Shown here one piece after another: positions 17,331 to 24,769 of a stretch of DNA of 48,399 nucleotides; positions within the stretch are counted from its first letter, which is position 1; the number at the start of each line of letters is the position of its first letter. Source of the DNA: Pyramidobacter piscolens W5455 (lineage in GTDB: Bacteria; Synergistota; Synergistia; Synergistales; Dethiosulfovibrionaceae); the NCBI RefSeq assembly GCF_000177335.1, contig NZ_ADFP01000123.1:1-48399 (forward strand), written 5' to 3'. A program made the position numbers and the translations under genes. A model generated the notes under the pieces. The model saw nothing but the letters and a program-made list of their open reading frames with translations, did not search any database and was not told the origin of the DNA.

Positions 17331-17412
17331 TTTCGTTTTCGTTCGGTTGGCAAACCGCGCCGGCAGATCTAATACTAATTCTTGATAGAAAGTGTTAACA
17401 TAATTTTCCGGC

Positions 17413-17485
17413 CGCTGCGGGGGGCAGTCGCTCAGGACTGCTTCGACTGCTGCGCAGATCGCTTTGTGAATCTCCCCCCGCAGCG
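17413..17485 (-). ncRNA. Structured element downstream of the 2HCT transporter
   Basis: An outer 12-bp stem (CGCTGCGGGGGG 17413-17424 with CCCCCCGCAGCG 17474-17485) encloses a second 7-bp stem (GCAGTCG with CGACTGC, 17424-17430 and 17444-17450). It begins about 35 bases after the transporter stop on the minus strand. It could be an elaborate terminator (an AAAATTAT follows) or a small RNA derived from the 3' UTR. The rest of the 308-base gap 17213-17519 holds only the regulator terminator. Confidence 0.45.
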
Positions 17486-17519
17486 CCCTCGTATTCGGCT
17501 TTTTGATCAACAAACAGTA

Positions 17520-18818
17520 TTAGATGATCTGCAGCAGCACGCTGGCGAGGATCAGCATGAAGGCGCCGCCGATGCGGGAGGAAATTTGCGCGAAGGGCAT
17601 CAGTTCCATGCGGTTGGCTGCGGAAAGAACGGCCACGTCGCCCGTGCCGCCCATGTTGGCCATGCAGAGGCCGGCGGTGATGGCCGACTCGACGGGATAG
17701 AAGCCGACGAGGCGTCCGACCAGAGCCGAACCGATGATGGCGCCGAGCACCGTCACGCCGACGAGCAGCAGATACTGTCCGGAGAAGGCGGAAACGATTT
17801 GGCCGAGATCGGTGTAGGCCACGCCGATGCCGACGAGGAGCGTCGCCGTCAGATTCTTCATGATGAACTGGAACCACTGGTAGCAACAGATCTCGTAGTA
17901 CTGGGGGAGAATGCCCAGCGCCTTGACGACGGCGACGGAGATGATCATCCAGGCGTAGCTGTGGATCTTGGGAATGAAGAAAGCGATGATGCGTCCCCAG
18001 GCGAAAAATGCCGTCGCCAGCAGCAGGCCGACGCCCATGACTGTCAGGCTGACGGCATCGCGCTTTTTGAGGAATTCTTCGTCGGCTTTGATGGTGTCGT
18101 CGGCCCCCTTGGCGATCAGCAGGTCGCCGTTGCCGGTGAGGCTGGGGAAGGTCTTGCCGAGTTTGCTCAGCAGTCCGCCGGCGACGATCGCCATGGCGTT
18201 GCCGAGGGCGACGGCGGGGATCATGATGTTGATGATGTCCTCGGGTTTCTGCGCCAGCGTTTCGCCGAAGATCTTCGACAGCGGTACGGCGCCGGCGCCC
18301 ATGCCGCCGCCCATGATCGGCACGGCGATGTAAAGGATGGCCTGCTTGGCGCCGTAACCGGTCAGTTCGCCGACGAGGCCGGCGAGACCAAGCGCCACGA
18401 CGACGCCGCCGACGATGGCGGGCAGGTAGCGGATGGCGGCGCGGATCAGCAGATCGCGGTTCATGCCGAGGATCGAGCCGCAGATCAGCGCGGCGATGTA
18501 GAAGTCAAGAAAGCCCTCGCCCTTCATGAAGTTGGTGACGATCTTGACGGTCGCGTCGGGAATGAGATGATAGTAACAGAGTGCCGCCATGCCGAAAATG
18601 ATGACGATGGCGCCGCCGCCGAGGTAGGTATTGACGATCGGGCAACGGTTGCCGATCTCGTTGAGAACGGCGCCGACGACGATCATGAACGGAAAGGCGC
18701 CGATCATGCCTTTGGGCAGCACGCCCATATACGTCGCCACAAGGACGATGGCCGCGAAGACGGCGAAGATCTGCCAGGGCATGTTGAACAGCCTGAGGCT
18801 TTTGCTTTCTTCAGACAT
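17520..18818 (-). CDS. 2-hydroxycarboxylate transporter (CitS/MaeN/CimH-type)
   Basis: 432 aa, integral membrane, with about 11 hydrophobic spans. The two re-entrant loop motifs of the 2HCT family are visible: [13 protein letters not shown] in the first half and [18 protein letters not shown] in the second. The family carries citrate, malate or lactate with sodium or protons, or exchanges substrate for product. The gene lies 100 bases downstream of malic enzyme on the same strand, so malate uptake coupled to its decarboxylation is the likely job. GGAGG is about 9 bases before ATG. Confidence 0.93.
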
Positions 18819-18918: not shown

Positions 18919-20097
18919 TTACAGCCGCGCCACGCCGGTCTTGCGGGCAGCGTCGGCCACGGCTTTCGCCACTGCGGGCACGACGCGCTTGTCGAACGAG
19001 TCGGCGATGATATGGTCGGGCGTCAGCTCGGCGTCGGGGATCAGCGCGGCCAGCGCATAAGCGGCGGCCAGCTGCATCTCGTCGTTGATCTGTGTGGCGC
19101 GGCAGTCGAGCGCGCCGCGGAAGATGCCGGGGAAGCCGAGGCAGTTGTTGACCTGGTTGGGGAAGTCGGAGCGCCCGGTGCCGACGACCATCGCGCCGGC
19201 GGCCTTGGCTTCGTCGGGGAAGATTTCGGGCACGGGATTGGCCATGGCGAAGATGATCGCCTTGGACGCCATGGTCTTCACCATCTCGGGCTTGAGCGCG
19301 CCGCCGACGGAGGTGCCGAGGAAAATGTCGGCTCTTTTGATGACGTCGGCCAGCCGGCCTTTTTCGTGATTCGGATTGGTGATCTTGGCGAGCGCGAGCT
19401 TGGCGGGGGCGAGGTCCATGTCGTCGGAGAGCGCGCCCTTGCTGTCGAGGGCGATGATGTTCTTCGCCCCGGCCAGCGTCAGCATCTTGCTGATGGCCGT
19501 GCCGGCCGCTCCGGCGCCGTTGAGGACGATTTTCACGTCGGCGATCTTCTTGCCCACGACTTTGAGCGCGTTGATCACGGCGCTGAGCAGGATCACGGCG
19601 GTGCCGTGCTGGTCGTCGTGGAACACGGGAATGTCGCAGACGGCCTTGAGCCGGTCCTCGATCTCGAAGCAGCGGGGCGCGGCGATGTCTTCGAGATTGA
19701 TGCCGCCGAGCGTGGCGGTGATGTTTTTGACGATGCCGATGATCTCTTCCGTGTCCTGCGTCTCGATGCAGATGGGGATCGCGTCGATGCCGGCGAAGTT
19801 CTTGAAGAGACAGCATTTGCCCTCCATCACGGGGATGGCCGCCTTGGCGCCGATGTTGCCGAGGCCGAGCACGGCGCTGCCGTCGCTGATGACGGCGACG
19901 ACGTTGCTCTTGGACGTGTAGGTGTAGACTTCCTCCGGCTTCTTGTTGATGACGCGGCAGGGTTCGGCGACGCCGGGCGTGTAGGCGACGGCCAGCTCCT
20001 GCATGTTGGTGACAGGCATCTTGCTGACCATGGCGAACTTGCCCACGGTCTCCTTGTGGCGTTCCAGCGCGATTTCGTAAATTGTCTTTTCTGTCAT
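18919..20097 (-). CDS. NAD(P)-dependent malic enzyme (short bacterial type)
   Basis: 392 aa, cytoplasmic. It converts malate to pyruvate and CO2 with reduction of NAD(P). Seen: the [11 protein letters not shown] catalytic segment, [22 protein letters not shown] metal-binding region, [12 protein letters not shown] dinucleotide loop, and [12 protein letters not shown]. Length matches the compact malic enzymes without the phosphotransacetylase domain. Upstream, AGGAGG lies just before ATG, and a TATAAT (20162-20167 on the opposite strand) is in the divergent gap with citD. Transcribed with the 2HCT transporter. Confidence 0.95.
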
Positions 20098-20134: not shown

Positions 20135-20231
20135 TGTAAACGAAACGTTGTAATTTTTTCTATTATACATGAAACTCTTCGGAAATGCCGTATTTTTATT
20201 TTTTAACGACTGACGAAAAATATTGTTTACA
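20135..20231. promoter_or_regulatory. Divergent control region with mirrored TGTAAAC/GTTTACA elements
   Basis: In the 226-base gap between malic enzyme (-) and citD (+), TGTAAAC at 20135-20141 is mirrored by GTTTACA at 20225-20231. Each lies beside one of the two promoters. They could be half-sites for the nearby GntR regulator, but this rests only on position and symmetry. Confidence 0.35.
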
Positions 20232-20253
20232 GACGGAATGGCCGTGCTAGAAT
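20226..20253 (+). promoter_or_regulatory. Promoter of the lyase-hydratase operon
   Basis: TTTACA, a 16-base spacer and TAGAAT, about 70 bases before the citD start. The -35 overlaps the GTTTACA element. Confidence 0.6.
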
Positions 20254-20323: not shown

Positions 20324-20596
20324 TTGGAGATCAGGAGAAAAGCCGTCGCCGACACGCTCGAGTCGAGCGACGTTCTCGTGGAGATCGAACCGGGGCGCGG
20401 CGTGACCGTCGAGCTGGAATCGGTCGTAACGGAGCAGTTCGGCGCGGCGATCGAGGAAACCGTCCGCAGGGTGCTGAAGGAATTCGCGGTGGAGGACGCC
20501 TCGCTGCGCGTCGTCGATCGCGGCGCGCTCGACTGCACGATCCGCGCCCGAATGGAGACCGCGATCAAGCGCGCGGCGGAAGGGGAGGAAAAATAA
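20324..20596 (+). CDS. citD: Citrate-lyase-type acyl carrier protein (gamma subunit)
   Basis: 90 aa. The start TTG at 20324 is preferred because GGGAGGG lies 7 bases upstream and the protein then begins MEIRRKAVADTLESSD like other CitD; the open frame extends upstream without a ribosome site. Ser14 in LESSDVLV is the attachment site of the phosphoribosyl-dephospho-CoA group. The acyl carrier holds the acetyl group during the lyase cycle. It abuts citE with no gap (stop TAA then ATG). The same fold serves citrate lyase and citramalate lyase. Confidence 0.9.
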   Translation: MEIRRKAVADTLESSDVLVEIEPGRGVTVELESVVTEQFGAAIEETVRRVLKEFAVEDASLRVVDRGALDCTIRARMETAIKRAAEGEEK

Positions 20597-21475
20597 ATGC
20601 GCCGTTCCATGCTGTTCCTGCCGGGCAACACGCCCAACATCATCGTCAACGGCGACGCGCTCGGCGCCGACAACGTCATCCTCGACCTCGAAGACGCCGT
20701 CGCGCCGGACCAGAAAGACGCCGCTCGCATCCTCGTGCGCAACGCCGTCAAGACGCTCGGCTTCGAGAGCGTCGAGCTGACAGTGCGCATCAACTCGCTC
20801 GACACTCCCTACTGGCGGGCCGACCTCGACGAGATCGTGCCGCTGCGTCCCGACCTGATCATGCCCACCAAAGTCGGCGGCGCCGAAGACGTGCTGACGC
20901 TCGACGCCTACATGGCCGAGGTGGAAAAGAAAAACGGCCTTCCCGCCGGGACCGTGAAGCTGATCCCGCTGATCGAAACGGCGCGCGGGCTGGAAAACGC
21001 CTACGCCATCGCCGGCGCTTCGCCGCGCGTGGCGGCGATCTTCCTCGGCGCCGAAGACCTGACCGCCGACCTGCGCTGCCCCCGCACCAAGGAAGGCGCG
21101 GAGATCTTCTACGCGCGCAGCCGCATGGTGTCGGCCGCCCGCGCCGCCGGGATCGACGTCTACGACACGCCGTTCACCGACGTCAACGACGACGAGGGGA
21201 TCGTCAGGGACGCTCGGTTGGCGCGCAGCCTGGGCTTCAGCGGCAAGGCCGTGATCTCGCCGCGCCACGTGCGCGCCGTCAACGAGGCCTTCAGTCCGAC
21301 GCAGAAGGAGGTCGACTACGCCCGCGAAGTGCTGGCCGCCATCCGCCAGGCCAAGGAACAGGGGCGCGGCGCGATCTCGCTTTACGGCAAGATGATCGAC
21401 AAACCGATCGTCGCGCGCGCCGAGCAGACTATCGCCATGGCCGAGGCCATCGCCAAAGGAGGGCGCGAAGAATGA
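20597..21475 (+). CDS. citE: Citrate/citramalate lyase beta subunit
   Basis: 292 aa, TIM-barrel lyase subunit that splits the acyl-ACP thioester to acetyl-ACP and a 2-oxo acid. Motifs: RRSMLFLPGN, DNVILDLEDAV (metal-binding acidic residues), PTKVGG, IPLIETARG, FLGAEDLTADL and GKAVISPRHV. It overlaps citF by 4 bases. Sequence alone does not tell citrate (giving oxaloacetate) from citramalate (giving pyruvate). Confidence 0.93.
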   Translation: MRRSMLFLPGNTPNIIVNGDALGADNVILDLEDAVAPDQKDAARILVRNAVKTLGFESVELTVRINSLDTPYWRADLDEIVPLRPDLIMPTKVGGAEDVLTLDAYMAEVEKKNGLPAGTVKLIPLIETARGLENAYAIAGASPRVAAIFLGAEDLTADLRCPRTKEGAEIFYARSRMVSAARAAGIDVYDTPFTDVNDDEGIVRDARLARSLGFSGKAVISPRHVRAVNEAFSPTQKEVDYAREVLAAIRQAKEQGRGAISLYGKMIDKPIVARAEQTIAMAEAIAKGGREE

Positions 21476-22881
21476 AAGACAGCAAAGTCATCGCCACGCT
21501 GAAAGACGCCGTCCTCCGTTCCGGGCTGAAAAACGGCATGAGGATTTCTTTCCATCACCACCTGCGCGACGGCGACGGCGTGATGAACATGGTTCTGGGC
21601 GAGCTGGCCGCCATGGGCTACCGCGATCTGACGGTCAACAGCAGCTCCGTGTTCGACGTGCAGAGTCCCATTATCGACCACGTTAAAAGCGGCGTCGTCG
21701 GCCGCATCGAAACCAACTACATGGGGGCCAAAGTGGGGCGCTTCATCTCCGCAGGCGGCATGAAGGAACCGGTCGTTTTCCGCTCGCACGGCGGACGCCC
21801 GAGCGCCGTCGAAAACGGCGTCACGCCGATCGACGTGGCGTTCGTCGCCGCGCCCACGGCCGACCCCATGGGCAACGCCACGGGAAAAATCGGCAAAAGC
21901 GCCTGCGGCTCGCTCGGCTATGCTGAAGCCGACGCGCGCTGCGCCAAGCGTACGATCGTCGTCACCGACAACCTCGTCCCGTATCCGCTCGAGGACGCCA
22001 TGATTCAGGAACAGTGGGTCGACGGCGTCGTCGCCGTGGACAGCATCGGCGATCCGCAGGGCATCGTCTCCGGCACCACGCGCATCACCCGCGATCCCGT
22101 CGGCCTTGTCATGGCGCGCACCACCGTCGACGTGATCCGCGCCTCCGGGCTGCTCAGGGACGGTTTTTCGTTCCAGACCGGCGCGGGCGGCGCTTCTCTG
22201 GCCGCGGCCAAGTTCCTCAAAGACGTCATGCTGGCCGAAAAGATCCAGGGCAGCTACGCCCTCGGCGGCGTCACCAGCGCCATCGTCGACATGCTGAACG
22301 CCGGCTGCTTTCGCTCGATCATGGACGTGCAGTGCTTCGACCTCGGCGCGGTGGCCTCGATCCGCGACAATCCGCGTCACGTGGAGATCTCGGCGACGCG
22401 CTACGCCTCGCCGACGTCCAAGTCATGCTGCGTCGACAGCCTCGACGCGGCCATCCTCGGCGCGACGGAAATCGACACCGACTTCAACGTCAACGTGCAC
22501 ACCGATTCCAACGGTTTCATCATGGGCGGCAGCGGCGGCCACAGCGACGTCGCCGCCGGCGCAAAACTGTGCATCATCGTCGCGCCGCTGATCCGCGCGC
22601 GTCTGCCCATCGTCACCGACCGCGTCACTACGATCTCCACGCCGGGGCGCACGGTCGACGTGCTCGTCACGCAGAAAGGCGTGGCAGTCAATCCGGCCCG
22701 CGCGGCCCTGCGCGATCGTCTTGCCGAAGCGGGCGTCAAAGTCGTGGACATCCACGACCTCAAAGCCGCGGCCGAGAAGCTGACCGGCGCGCCCCGCCGC
22801 CCCGCGCGCGGGACCCGCGAGGTGGCGAAGGTCGTGTACCGCGACGAAACTCAGATCGACAGCATCAAGAGCGTGAAATAA
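21472..22881 (+). CDS. citF: Citrate/citramalate lyase alpha subunit (CoA/ACP transferase)
   Basis: 469 aa, somewhat shorter than typical CitF (about 500). It exchanges the acetyl group on the carrier protein for the substrate acid. Seen: FHHHLRDGDGVMNMV, the SSVFDVQSPIIDHVKSG block, FRSHGGRPSAVENG, SFQTGAGGASLAA and GGSGGHSDVAAGAKL. ATG overlaps the citE stop, a sign of coupling. No citC, citX or citG, which activate the carrier, lie in this window. Confidence 0.93.
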   Translation: MKDSKVIATLKDAVLRSGLKNGMRISFHHHLRDGDGVMNMVLGELAAMGYRDLTVNSSSVFDVQSPIIDHVKSGVVGRIETNYMGAKVGRFISAGGMKEPVVFRSHGGRPSAVENGVTPIDVAFVAAPTADPMGNATGKIGKSACGSLGYAEADARCAKRTIVVTDNLVPYPLEDAMIQEQWVDGVVAVDSIGDPQGIVSGTTRITRDPVGLVMARTTVDVIRASGLLRDGFSFQTGAGGASLAAAKFLKDVMLAEKIQGSYALGGVTSAIVDMLNAGCFRSIMDVQCFDLGAVASIRDNPRHVEISATRYASPTSKSCCVDSLDAAILGATEIDTDFNVNVHTDSNGFIMGGSGGHSDVAAGAKLCIIVAPLIRARLPIVTDRVTTISTPGRTVDVLVTQKGVAVNPARAALRDRLAEAGVKVVDIHDLKAAAEKLTGAPRRPARGTREVAKVVYRDETQIDSIKSVK

Positions 22882-22952
22882 TTTTGCGCGGGGCAATCCT
22901 TTTGCCGGAGCGGTCCCGCATTGGCGAAAACGCCGAAGGGGGAGATGGCAAG

Positions 22953-24203
22953 ATGCATGCCACGGAAAAAATCCTCGCCGCCCACGCCGGACGCGCGTCC
23001 GTCGCGGCAGGCGAGATCGTCAACTGCACGGTCGACGTGGCCGGGATCAACGACCTGTATCTGCAGACCGTGCGCTCGTTTTTCGAGATCGGCGGCGTCA
23101 CAGTCCATTCGCCGCAGAACGTGGTGATGTTCCTCGACCACTACGCGCCGGCCTCGTCGATCCAGCAGGCCGACAACCAAAAACAGTTCCGCGAATTCTG
23201 CGACGCGCAGAACATCGCCAACCTCATGGACGTGAACGAAGGCGTCTGCCACCAGATCTGCGTGGACAAGGGATTTTCGCGCCCCGGGCGCCTGATGGTG
23301 ATCACCGACTCGCACACCACCACTCACGGCGCGCTGGGGGCGTTCGGGACCGGCGTCGGTGCCACCGACATGGCCGCGATCCTGATCTCCGGGCAGCTGT
23401 GGTTCCGCGTGCCCGAAGTGATAAAAATCGTCCTCGACGGTGCGCCGCGCAAAGGCGTGTTCGCCAAGGACGCGATTTTGCACGTCATCGGCGCGCTCGG
23501 AGCGGATTACGGCGTGTACAAGGTGATCGAGTTCTGCGGCGAAGCGGTCGCGGACATGCCGCTGTCGGAACGGCTGACGTTGTGCAACATGACCACCGAG
23601 ATCGGCGCCAAGACGGCGTGGATCCAACCGGACGAAATCACCTTCGCCCACATGGAACGTCTCGGCGTCGGCGACTACGTTGTGTACGAGACCGACCCCG
23701 ATTACCGCTACGCGGCGGAGCATCGTTTCGACCTCGGCGCGCTCGAGTCGCAGATCGCCGAGCCTGACAGCGTCGACAACGTGCATCCGATTTCGCACGG
23801 CGCCGGCACGAAGATCCAGCAGGCGTTCCTCGGCACCTGCACGGGCGGCCGCTTCGAAGACCTGGAAATCGCCGCGCGCATCGTCAAGGGACGGAAAGTG
23901 CCGCGCGGCACGCGCTTCGTCGTCGTGCCGGCCAGCCGCAAAACGCTGCTCGAAGCCGTCAAAAGCGGCGTCATGGAGACGCTCGTCGAAGCGGGCGCCA
24001 CGTTCGTCACGCCCGGCTGCGCCGCCTGCCTGGGCACGCACGAGGGCATGCTCGCGGCGGGCGAGAACTGCATCAGCTCTTCCAGCCGCAACTTCCCCGG
24101 GCGCATGGGCAGCGCCGAGGCGCGCATCTACCTTGGCTCTCCCGCCGCTGTGGCGGCCGCGGCGATCGCCGGCGAGATCGTCGATCCCGCCGAATTCCTG
24201 TGA
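22953..24203 (+). CDS. LeuC/aconitase-family hydratase, large subunit
   Basis: 416 aa. Iron-sulphur hydro-lyase of the isopropylmalate isomerase/homoaconitase type. Cluster cysteines are visible in FLGTCTGGRFEDL and in TPGCAACLG; DSHTTTHGALGAFGTGVG is the active-site block. The start at 22953 is chosen for GGGGGAG upstream and because the frame before it is the shadow of citF. It is 71 bases after citF and 14 bases before the small subunit. No leucine genes are present. Placement directly after the lyase suggests the hydratase makes or uses the lyase substrate, for example mesaconate to citramalate. Confidence 0.9.
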   Translation: MHATEKILAAHAGRASVAAGEIVNCTVDVAGINDLYLQTVRSFFEIGGVTVHSPQNVVMFLDHYAPASSIQQADNQKQFREFCDAQNIANLMDVNEGVCHQICVDKGFSRPGRLMVITDSHTTTHGALGAFGTGVGATDMAAILISGQLWFRVPEVIKIVLDGAPRKGVFAKDAILHVIGALGADYGVYKVIEFCGEAVADMPLSERLTLCNMTTEIGAKTAWIQPDEITFAHMERLGVGDYVVYETDPDYRYAAEHRFDLGALESQIAEPDSVDNVHPISHGAGTKIQQAFLGTCTGGRFEDLEIAARIVKGRKVPRGTRFVVVPASRKTLLEAVKSGVMETLVEAGATFVTPGCAACLGTHEGMLAAGENCISSSSRNFPGRMGSAEARIYLGSPAAVAAAAIAGEIVDPAEFL

Positions 24204-24217
24204 TCAGGAGGCCTCCC

Positions 24218-24721
24218 ATGGAAAAAATCATTTCCGGCCGCGCCAGCGTCTTCGGCAGCAACATCGACACCGATCAGATCTATCCCGGACGCTTCCTCTC
24301 CGAGACCGATCCCGACGACGTGAAGCGCCACGCCATGGCCGGCGCCGACCCCGACTTTGCGGAAAACTTCCAGCCCGGCGGTCTGATCGTCGCCGGCACG
24401 AACTTCGGCTGCGGCTCGTCGCGCGAACACGCCGCCGTCGCCCTCAAGGCCGCCGGCGTCAGCGCCGTCGTCGCCGAATCCTTCGCGCGCATCTTCTTCC
24501 GCAACGGCGTCAACCTCGGCATTCCGCTCGTGACCTGTGCGGGCGTTTCCCAAAAAGTCAAAGACGGCGACCGCCTTGTGCTCGACCTTTCCCGCTCGCT
24601 CCTGAAAAACGAGACCAGTGGCGAGGAACTGCCCTGCGAACCCGTCGGCGATTACGCTTTGACGATCCTCGAAGCCGGCGGCATCAAGCTGCTGCTGAAA
24701 GAGCTCTACGGCCGGCGCTGA
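24218..24721 (+). CDS. LeuD/aconitase-family hydratase, small subunit
   Basis: 167 aa, swivel domain partner of the gene at 22953. Motifs: FGSNIDTDQIYPG, NFGCGSSREHAA and ESFARIFFRNGVN. The substrate-selecting loop after IYPG reads RFLSETDP; the leucine enzymes usually have YLRT at this point, so a different substrate is likely. AGGAGG is 6 bases before ATG 24218, preferred over an earlier in-frame start at 24200. Last gene of the operon; terminator at 24744. Confidence 0.9.
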   Translation: MEKIISGRASVFGSNIDTDQIYPGRFLSETDPDDVKRHAMAGADPDFAENFQPGGLIVAGTNFGCGSSREHAAVALKAAGVSAVVAESFARIFFRNGVNLGIPLVTCAGVSQKVKDGDRLVLDLSRSLLKNETSGEELPCEPVGDYALTILEAGGIKLLLKELYGRR

Positions 24722-24743: not shown

Positions 24744-24769
24744 AACCGGCCCCTGCGGCAGGGCCGGTT
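24744..24769. terminator. Bidirectional terminator between hydratase and PH-domain genes
   Basis: AACCGGCCCCTG, CGG, then CAGGGCCGGTT with one bulged base; A-run on the left side and CAATTTTTC on the right, so it serves both convergent genes. Confidence 0.85.

Follow-up and report, generated by a model that had tools for sequence, protein, structure and literature searches.

The window analysed here, a stretch of 48,399 nucleotides from Pyramidobacter piscolens W5455, contains a set of genes that we interpret, with slightly better than even confidence in the picture as a whole, as a catabolic island for C4/C5 2-hydroxydicarboxylates in which a hydratase supplies a lyase with a C5 acid. In this scheme, a carrier of the 2-hydroxycarboxylate (2HCT) family would take up (S)-malate and/or (S)-citramalate, a malic enzyme would convert malate to pyruvate and CO2, and CitDEF, acting as a citramalate lyase, would split (S)-citramalate into acetate and pyruvate. 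The lyase would be fed by a LeuCD-type hydratase that hydrates either mesaconate or citraconate, both of them unsaturated C5 diacids. The gene content, the clade of the lyase, its signature residues and the missing glutamate route are read directly from the sequence.

A preliminary description of this DNA had placed citD, citE, citF, leuC and leuD in a single operon with the hydratase directly behind the lyase. This arrangement stands: the five genes are contiguous on the plus strand and are framed by a promoter-like site and a terminator-like hairpin, Table 1, and family models identify homologues of all three lyase subunits. The gene set described, citDEF plus a hydratase, was correct but overlooked the divergently encoded malic enzyme and 2HCT carrier. 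The promoter scan, a consensus match only, returned one site in the region against 0.6 expected. At 17369-17522 the window also holds a MITE-like repeat of about 160 bases, which folds strongly (z -3.9), has inverted ends (ATCTAATACT) and is present in some 45 copies in the genome.

Table 1 Features of the proposed dicarboxylate island (positions in the window)
Feature	Position	Strand	Assignment and basis
citD	20324-20596	+	acyl carrier subunit, 90 aa; TTG start codon preceded by AGGGAGG; TIGR01608, 102 bits, cut-off 63.5
citE	20597-21475	+	proposed citramalyl-ACP lyase subunit; TIGR01588, 316.2 bits (cut-off 443.4), and tree
citF	21472-22881	+	proposed ACP transferase subunit of citramalate lyase; tree and M351, Y83, G353
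leuC-like	22953-24203	+	LeuC-type large hydratase subunit, CTGG subfamily; LeuC/HacA subfamily models
leuD-like	24218-24721	+	LeuD-type small subunit; LeuD/DmdB subfamily; loop DTDQIYPGRFLSET
promoter-like site of cit-leu operon	20226-20253	+	consensus scan, 10/12 matches, TG before second hexamer
terminator-like hairpin after leuD	24744-24769	+	9 pairs, then T; consensus match only
malic enzyme-like protein for decarboxylation of malate or oxaloacetate	18919-20097	-	divergent from citD
2-hydroxycarboxylate carrier, malate-carrier residue type	17520-18818	-	2HCT family, PF03390

That CitDEF is a citramalate lyase, as had been proposed, is backed by the phylogeny of CitF and CitE, by three CitF residues, by the CitE model scores and by the binding-site residues of the carrier, and on this evidence we consider it likely. 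The best CitF match in a plasmid collection, at 69.2% identity, is from Peptoclostridium acidaminophilum, whose citramalate lyase (EAL2_RS13800-13810) shares with that of the window the citD-citE-citF order, 69% identity in both CitF and CitE, the clade and the CitF residues. There, however, the three genes directly precede a GntR gene, glmS, glmL, glmE and methylaspartate ammonia-lyase, and thus stand with glutamate mutase and methylaspartase, whereas the window lyase stands with LeuCD, malic enzyme and the 2HCT carrier. Four related clostridial genomes (G307, G386, G442 and G544; CitF 63-65% identity) have the same cluster and, unlike the window, an intervening pair of genes that match class I fumarases in size and kind, here named MesAB after PMC4682846. 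In a tree of 63 CitF sequences, the window type, P. acidaminophilum and these four genomes form a clade (support 100/98) distant from the citrate lyases of E. coli and Klebsiella, to which CitF and CitE are 48-49% identical; comparison with known enzymes, suggested earlier as a check, thus groups the window type with the lyases of methylaspartate clusters. The CitE tree gives the same clade (96/94), and the next outgroups are one glutamate mutase-linked genome (G149), a TRAP-linked row and three 2HCT-linked rows (L179-L181).

The family models differ in how they treat the two lyase types. Against the citE equivalog TIGR01588, citrate-type CitE scores 520 (Klebsiella), 470 (E. faecium) and 452 bits (E. 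coli); the window protein scores 316, that of P. acidaminophilum 303 and that of L124 214 bits, all under the cut-off of 443.4, so that the window CitE falls short of it, as do two methylaspartate-linked ones. TIGR01584 is passed by the CitF of both the window (574.8 bits, cut-off 501.45) and P. acidaminophilum, and so does not separate the citrate from the citramalate type. Columns 28/125/192/205 of CitE were dropped as determinants, as 5vxc, a citrate lyase beta-like mitochondrial protein that we take to be a citramalyl-CoA lyase, has V at 192 in the alignment. According to PMC4682846, citramalate lyase activity was not found in E. coli extracts in which citrate lyase was highly active.

Three CitF positions were read in 116 rows, 40 of them classed as 'other'. 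Y83 and G353 accompany M or I at position 351 in all 19 CitF with a link to glutamate mutase or methylaspartase, and the window reads M/Y/G; the combination R/G/A is found in the three named citrate lyases (3/3) and in 25 of 27 TTT-linked CitF, the remaining two being M/G/A and L/-/G. Eight 'other' rows are M/Y/G: the window, L087, L088, L089, L082 and the three 2HCT-linked clostridial CitF (L179, L180 and L181). Counts for IDH-linked CitF are circular, these classes having been split by the residue itself, and were left unused. Since the residues follow one clade, they are not independent of the tree. Position 351 is Arg in both solved CitF sequences, next to the invariant GASGGH loop, and we infer that this Arg may hold the carboxylate that is present in citrate and absent from citramalate. 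M351 alone was dropped as a mark, as it also occurs in two aconitase-linked rows (L186, L252), and an 'Acn' neighbour at the window CitF row proved an artefact of an open frame running through leuC.

The residues of the carrier, aligned to Klebsiella CitS numbering, are M186, Y348, M402, T405 and R428. Citrate in CitS is contacted by N186, Y348, R402 and S405 (PMC5451387, PMC4718727), and LlMleP, which carries malate only, has M, L, M and T at CitS positions 186, 348, 402 and 405, with a modelled clash between its Met at 186 and the citrate 3-carboxylate (PMC5451387). M186 is present in all eight carriers that adjoin an M/Y/G CitF and in none of the 12 that adjoin another CitF. The same type of carrier is found in P. 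acidaminophilum, where it adjoins a malic enzyme at a separate place from the lyase genes; the window malic enzyme is 58% identical to that malic enzyme. The binding-site residues point to malate and citramalate as the probable substrates of the carrier, rather than citrate; for the carrier as for the lyase, we infer the substrate.

A different use of the same genes, which we regard as improbable, would be the consumption of citrate, isocitrate or aconitate, with CitDEF as citrate lyase, LeuCD as an aconitase-like enzyme making citrate and the malic enzyme-like protein decarboxylating oxaloacetate. The gene content does resemble the E. faecium operon malic enzyme-2HCT-citCDEFXG, in which carrier, malic enzyme and CitDEF also occur together, and that of two clostridial 2HCT-linked loci (L180, L181) with malic enzyme, carrier and citCDEF; the stereochemistry of LeuCD enzymes fits citrate as well. 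The E. faecium operon nevertheless differs in its R/G/A CitF, V186 carrier, citC/X/G genes and lack of LeuCD, and against citrate use stand the CitF and CitE clades, the CitE score under the cut-off, M in place of R351 in CitF, and M in place of both N186 and R402 in the carrier. Moreover, the genome has a second, full-length CitF of the citrate type (R/G/A), which adjoins a TTT carrier (L085), and an Iso_dh-family search of the genome found no isocitrate dehydrogenase. This last result also rules out an isocitrate dehydrogenase partner such as that in the LeuCDx2-IDH-CitDEF clusters of the phylum. Those clusters, conserved in other Synergistota (L067-L080, L276, L282, L306) as FadR-HD protein-LeuCD-LeuCD-IDH-like-CitDEF, combine a third type of CitF (L/-/G) with a first LeuC in which the usual DH and SCTN motifs are missing; they could convert 2-oxoglutarate via isocitrate and citrate to acetate and oxaloacetate and so provide a citrate-based route for glutamate.

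The preliminary description had set the lyase within glutamate fermentation and named glutamate mutase and methylaspartate ammonia-lyase as genes to look for elsewhere in the genome. This setting did not hold up: neither gene, nor a class I fumarase, was found in the genome (2.56 Mb, 140 contigs, 98.8% completeness). Glutamate mutase E occurs in 2 of the 149 genomes of the phylum, and the 22-bit methylaspartase match in this genome, under the cut-off, is probably enolase. Classical methylaspartate fermentation, in which mesaconate would arise from glutamate in the same cell, shares the lyase clade with the window, but in view of these absences we consider it very improbable here. In known methylaspartate clusters, according to PMC4682846, the putative mesaconase is encoded by class I fumarase genes, and Thermanaerovibrio acidaminovorans is described with citrate lyase activity and without methylaspartase (PMC3035242). 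LeuCD was also considered as a component of classical clusters and rejected, there being no LeuC match in the P. acidaminophilum replicon or in five genomes (G149-G153) located by way of their glutamate mutase loci; a sixth genome, G154, has five such matches.

Several other loci in the phylum touch on this chemistry. A clear methylaspartate ammonia-lyase (>300 bits) is present in 10 of 149 Synergistota genomes (including L110-L117), and glutamate mutase E was matched in none of these ten. Glutamate mutase-type genes stand with a TRAP carrier, an ICL/PEPM-like lyase and an HD protein at L107 (G088:C10:12000-31900) and L120, the former additionally with LeuCD; the ORF lists of both are without methylaspartase, and they perhaps represent a different B12 mutase pathway.

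The association of LeuCD with the lyase is a property of the genus. LeuCD of the window type adjoins CitF in five genomes (G000, the present one, and G046, G047, G054 and G141) and malic enzyme in a sixth (G545), the contigs of G141 and G545 being short. Since one or the other arrangement is kept in all six genomes of the genus, it is not due to chance. The best LeuC matches have E-values of E-172 to E-282 within the genus and of about E-85, or are lacking, elsewhere in the family. Full-length citC is found in five of the six genomes; the present assembly gave only a 31-bit partial match, also seen in other genomes of the genus. The absence of citC was set aside as a sign of a dead lyase and is probably an assembly gap, because contig C131 stops about 1.3 kb short of the place where relatives carry the gene, and beyond this only repeats match. 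A third CitF (L/-/G type) occurs at L233 and L235 in two genomes of the genus (G046, G047), in G046 with PrpF-like and MmgE/PrpD-like genes and LeuCD as neighbours, and was not found in the present genome. At L231 (G000:C75:6000-24000) the latter has a single run of TctA, TRAP, LysR, MmgE/PrpD-like, LeuCD, MmgE/PrpD-like and aconitase-like genes, the PrpD-like ones named by eye.

The substrate of the hydratase is the least certain part of the scheme. The observation that no leucine genes lie nearby holds and can be extended: the Iso_dh family has no match anywhere in the genome (98.8% completeness), which therefore has no LeuB, ruling out leucine biosynthesis and a role as 3-isopropylmalate dehydratase. 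The Fumerase domain PF05681 likewise has no match in the genome; the hydratase consists of PF00330/PF00694 and, judged by these domains, is not of the class I fumarase type, the usual mesaconase. For both subunits the nearest solved structures are those of the M. jannaschii isopropylmalate/citramalate isomerase (4nqy/4kp1, 3vba), which differs in having CTN where the window has CTGG, YLVY in the small-subunit loop (3vba) where the window has FLSE, and a biosynthetic setting. The small-subunit loop had been described as RFLSE in place of YLRT; PGRFLSET is confirmed, but the comparison needs correcting, since YLRT belongs to the small subunit of the M. jannaschii homoaconitase (2pkp). The window LeuC falls in a group of 31 LeuC rows (SH-aLRT 99), all of which have CTGG, a motif absent from 51 of the 52 other rows (the exception being L192); the LeuD of this group mostly reads DTDQIYPG, and the window-type subunits form a separate branch with the altered loop.

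Elsewhere in the phylum, the CTGG group is found in FadR-LeuCD-TTT-racemase-malic enzyme operons of Acetomicrobium-type genomes. At L093, the racemase scores 579 bits against a cut-off of 500 for the curated nickel malate racemase LarAH6; this operon shares with the window the LeuCD subfamily (~53%) and malic enzyme, and has a TTT carrier and the racemase in place of 2HCT and CitDEF. A clustered racemase-like gene adjoins LeuCD at L096 (G043), and in G030 LeuCD adjoins TTT and an Iso_dh-family gene that reaches no family cut-off; telling neighbours were not seen at L092, L097 and L101. Because the neighbours include nickel malate racemase, maleate-like substrates are suggested for the group, which may hydrate maleate to D-malate. 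The window LeuCD could thus be a maleate hydratase making D-malate, a parallel entry to the malate branch beside the same lyase and carrier rather than a supplier of citramalate. Although the island does include a malic enzyme, it has no racemase, the genome has no Iso_dh-family D-malate dehydrogenase, and the window-type subunits are on their own branch with a changed loop; we regard this alternative as unlikely, if far from negligible. Our literature search on maleate hydratase found no reference to a LeuCD-type sequence. Given the differing loop and the association with a citramalate lyase, it is reasonable to guess that the window LeuCD acts on a methylated substrate.

In favour of LeuCD feeding the lyase we count the genus-wide linkage (6/6), an isopropylmalate/citramalate isomerase as the nearest solved relative of both subunits and the lack of a class I fumarase in the genome. 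LeuCD enzymes convert citraconate to (R)-citramalate, and the known citramalate lyase acts on (S)-citramalate. The pair therefore fits only if the hydratase has an unusual mesaconate geometry or the lyase accepts the (R) form; otherwise, LeuCD would serve a parallel acid rather than feed the lyase. The mesaconase proposed in the preliminary description is thus possible, but judging from the relatives of the hydratase, cis substrates such as maleate are the better candidates. It is conceivable, though doubtful, that LeuCD is an aconitase-superfamily mesaconase that forms (S)-citramalate from the trans diacid and stands in for class I fumarase, to which it is unrelated, in a scavenging route without the glutamate pathway. 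The mesaconate or citramalate would then be made by others, for example by clostridial glutamate fermenters or through host itaconate breakdown.

If the scheme is true, citramalate lyase would have a role in scavenging, independent of glutamate fermentation. Among the listings and passages covered by our literature search, none described this citDEF-leuCD operon, and the LeuCD subfamily of the window has no function-level model in NCBIfam. CitF positions 351/83/353 together with carrier positions 186/402 would provide sequence marks separating citramalate operons, now mostly annotated as citrate lyase, from citrate operons. Itaconate, a host immune metabolite, gives rise to mesaconate and citramalate (PMC12460153), and one could thus speculate that a bacterium using these acids may be relevant in the gut or the mouth.
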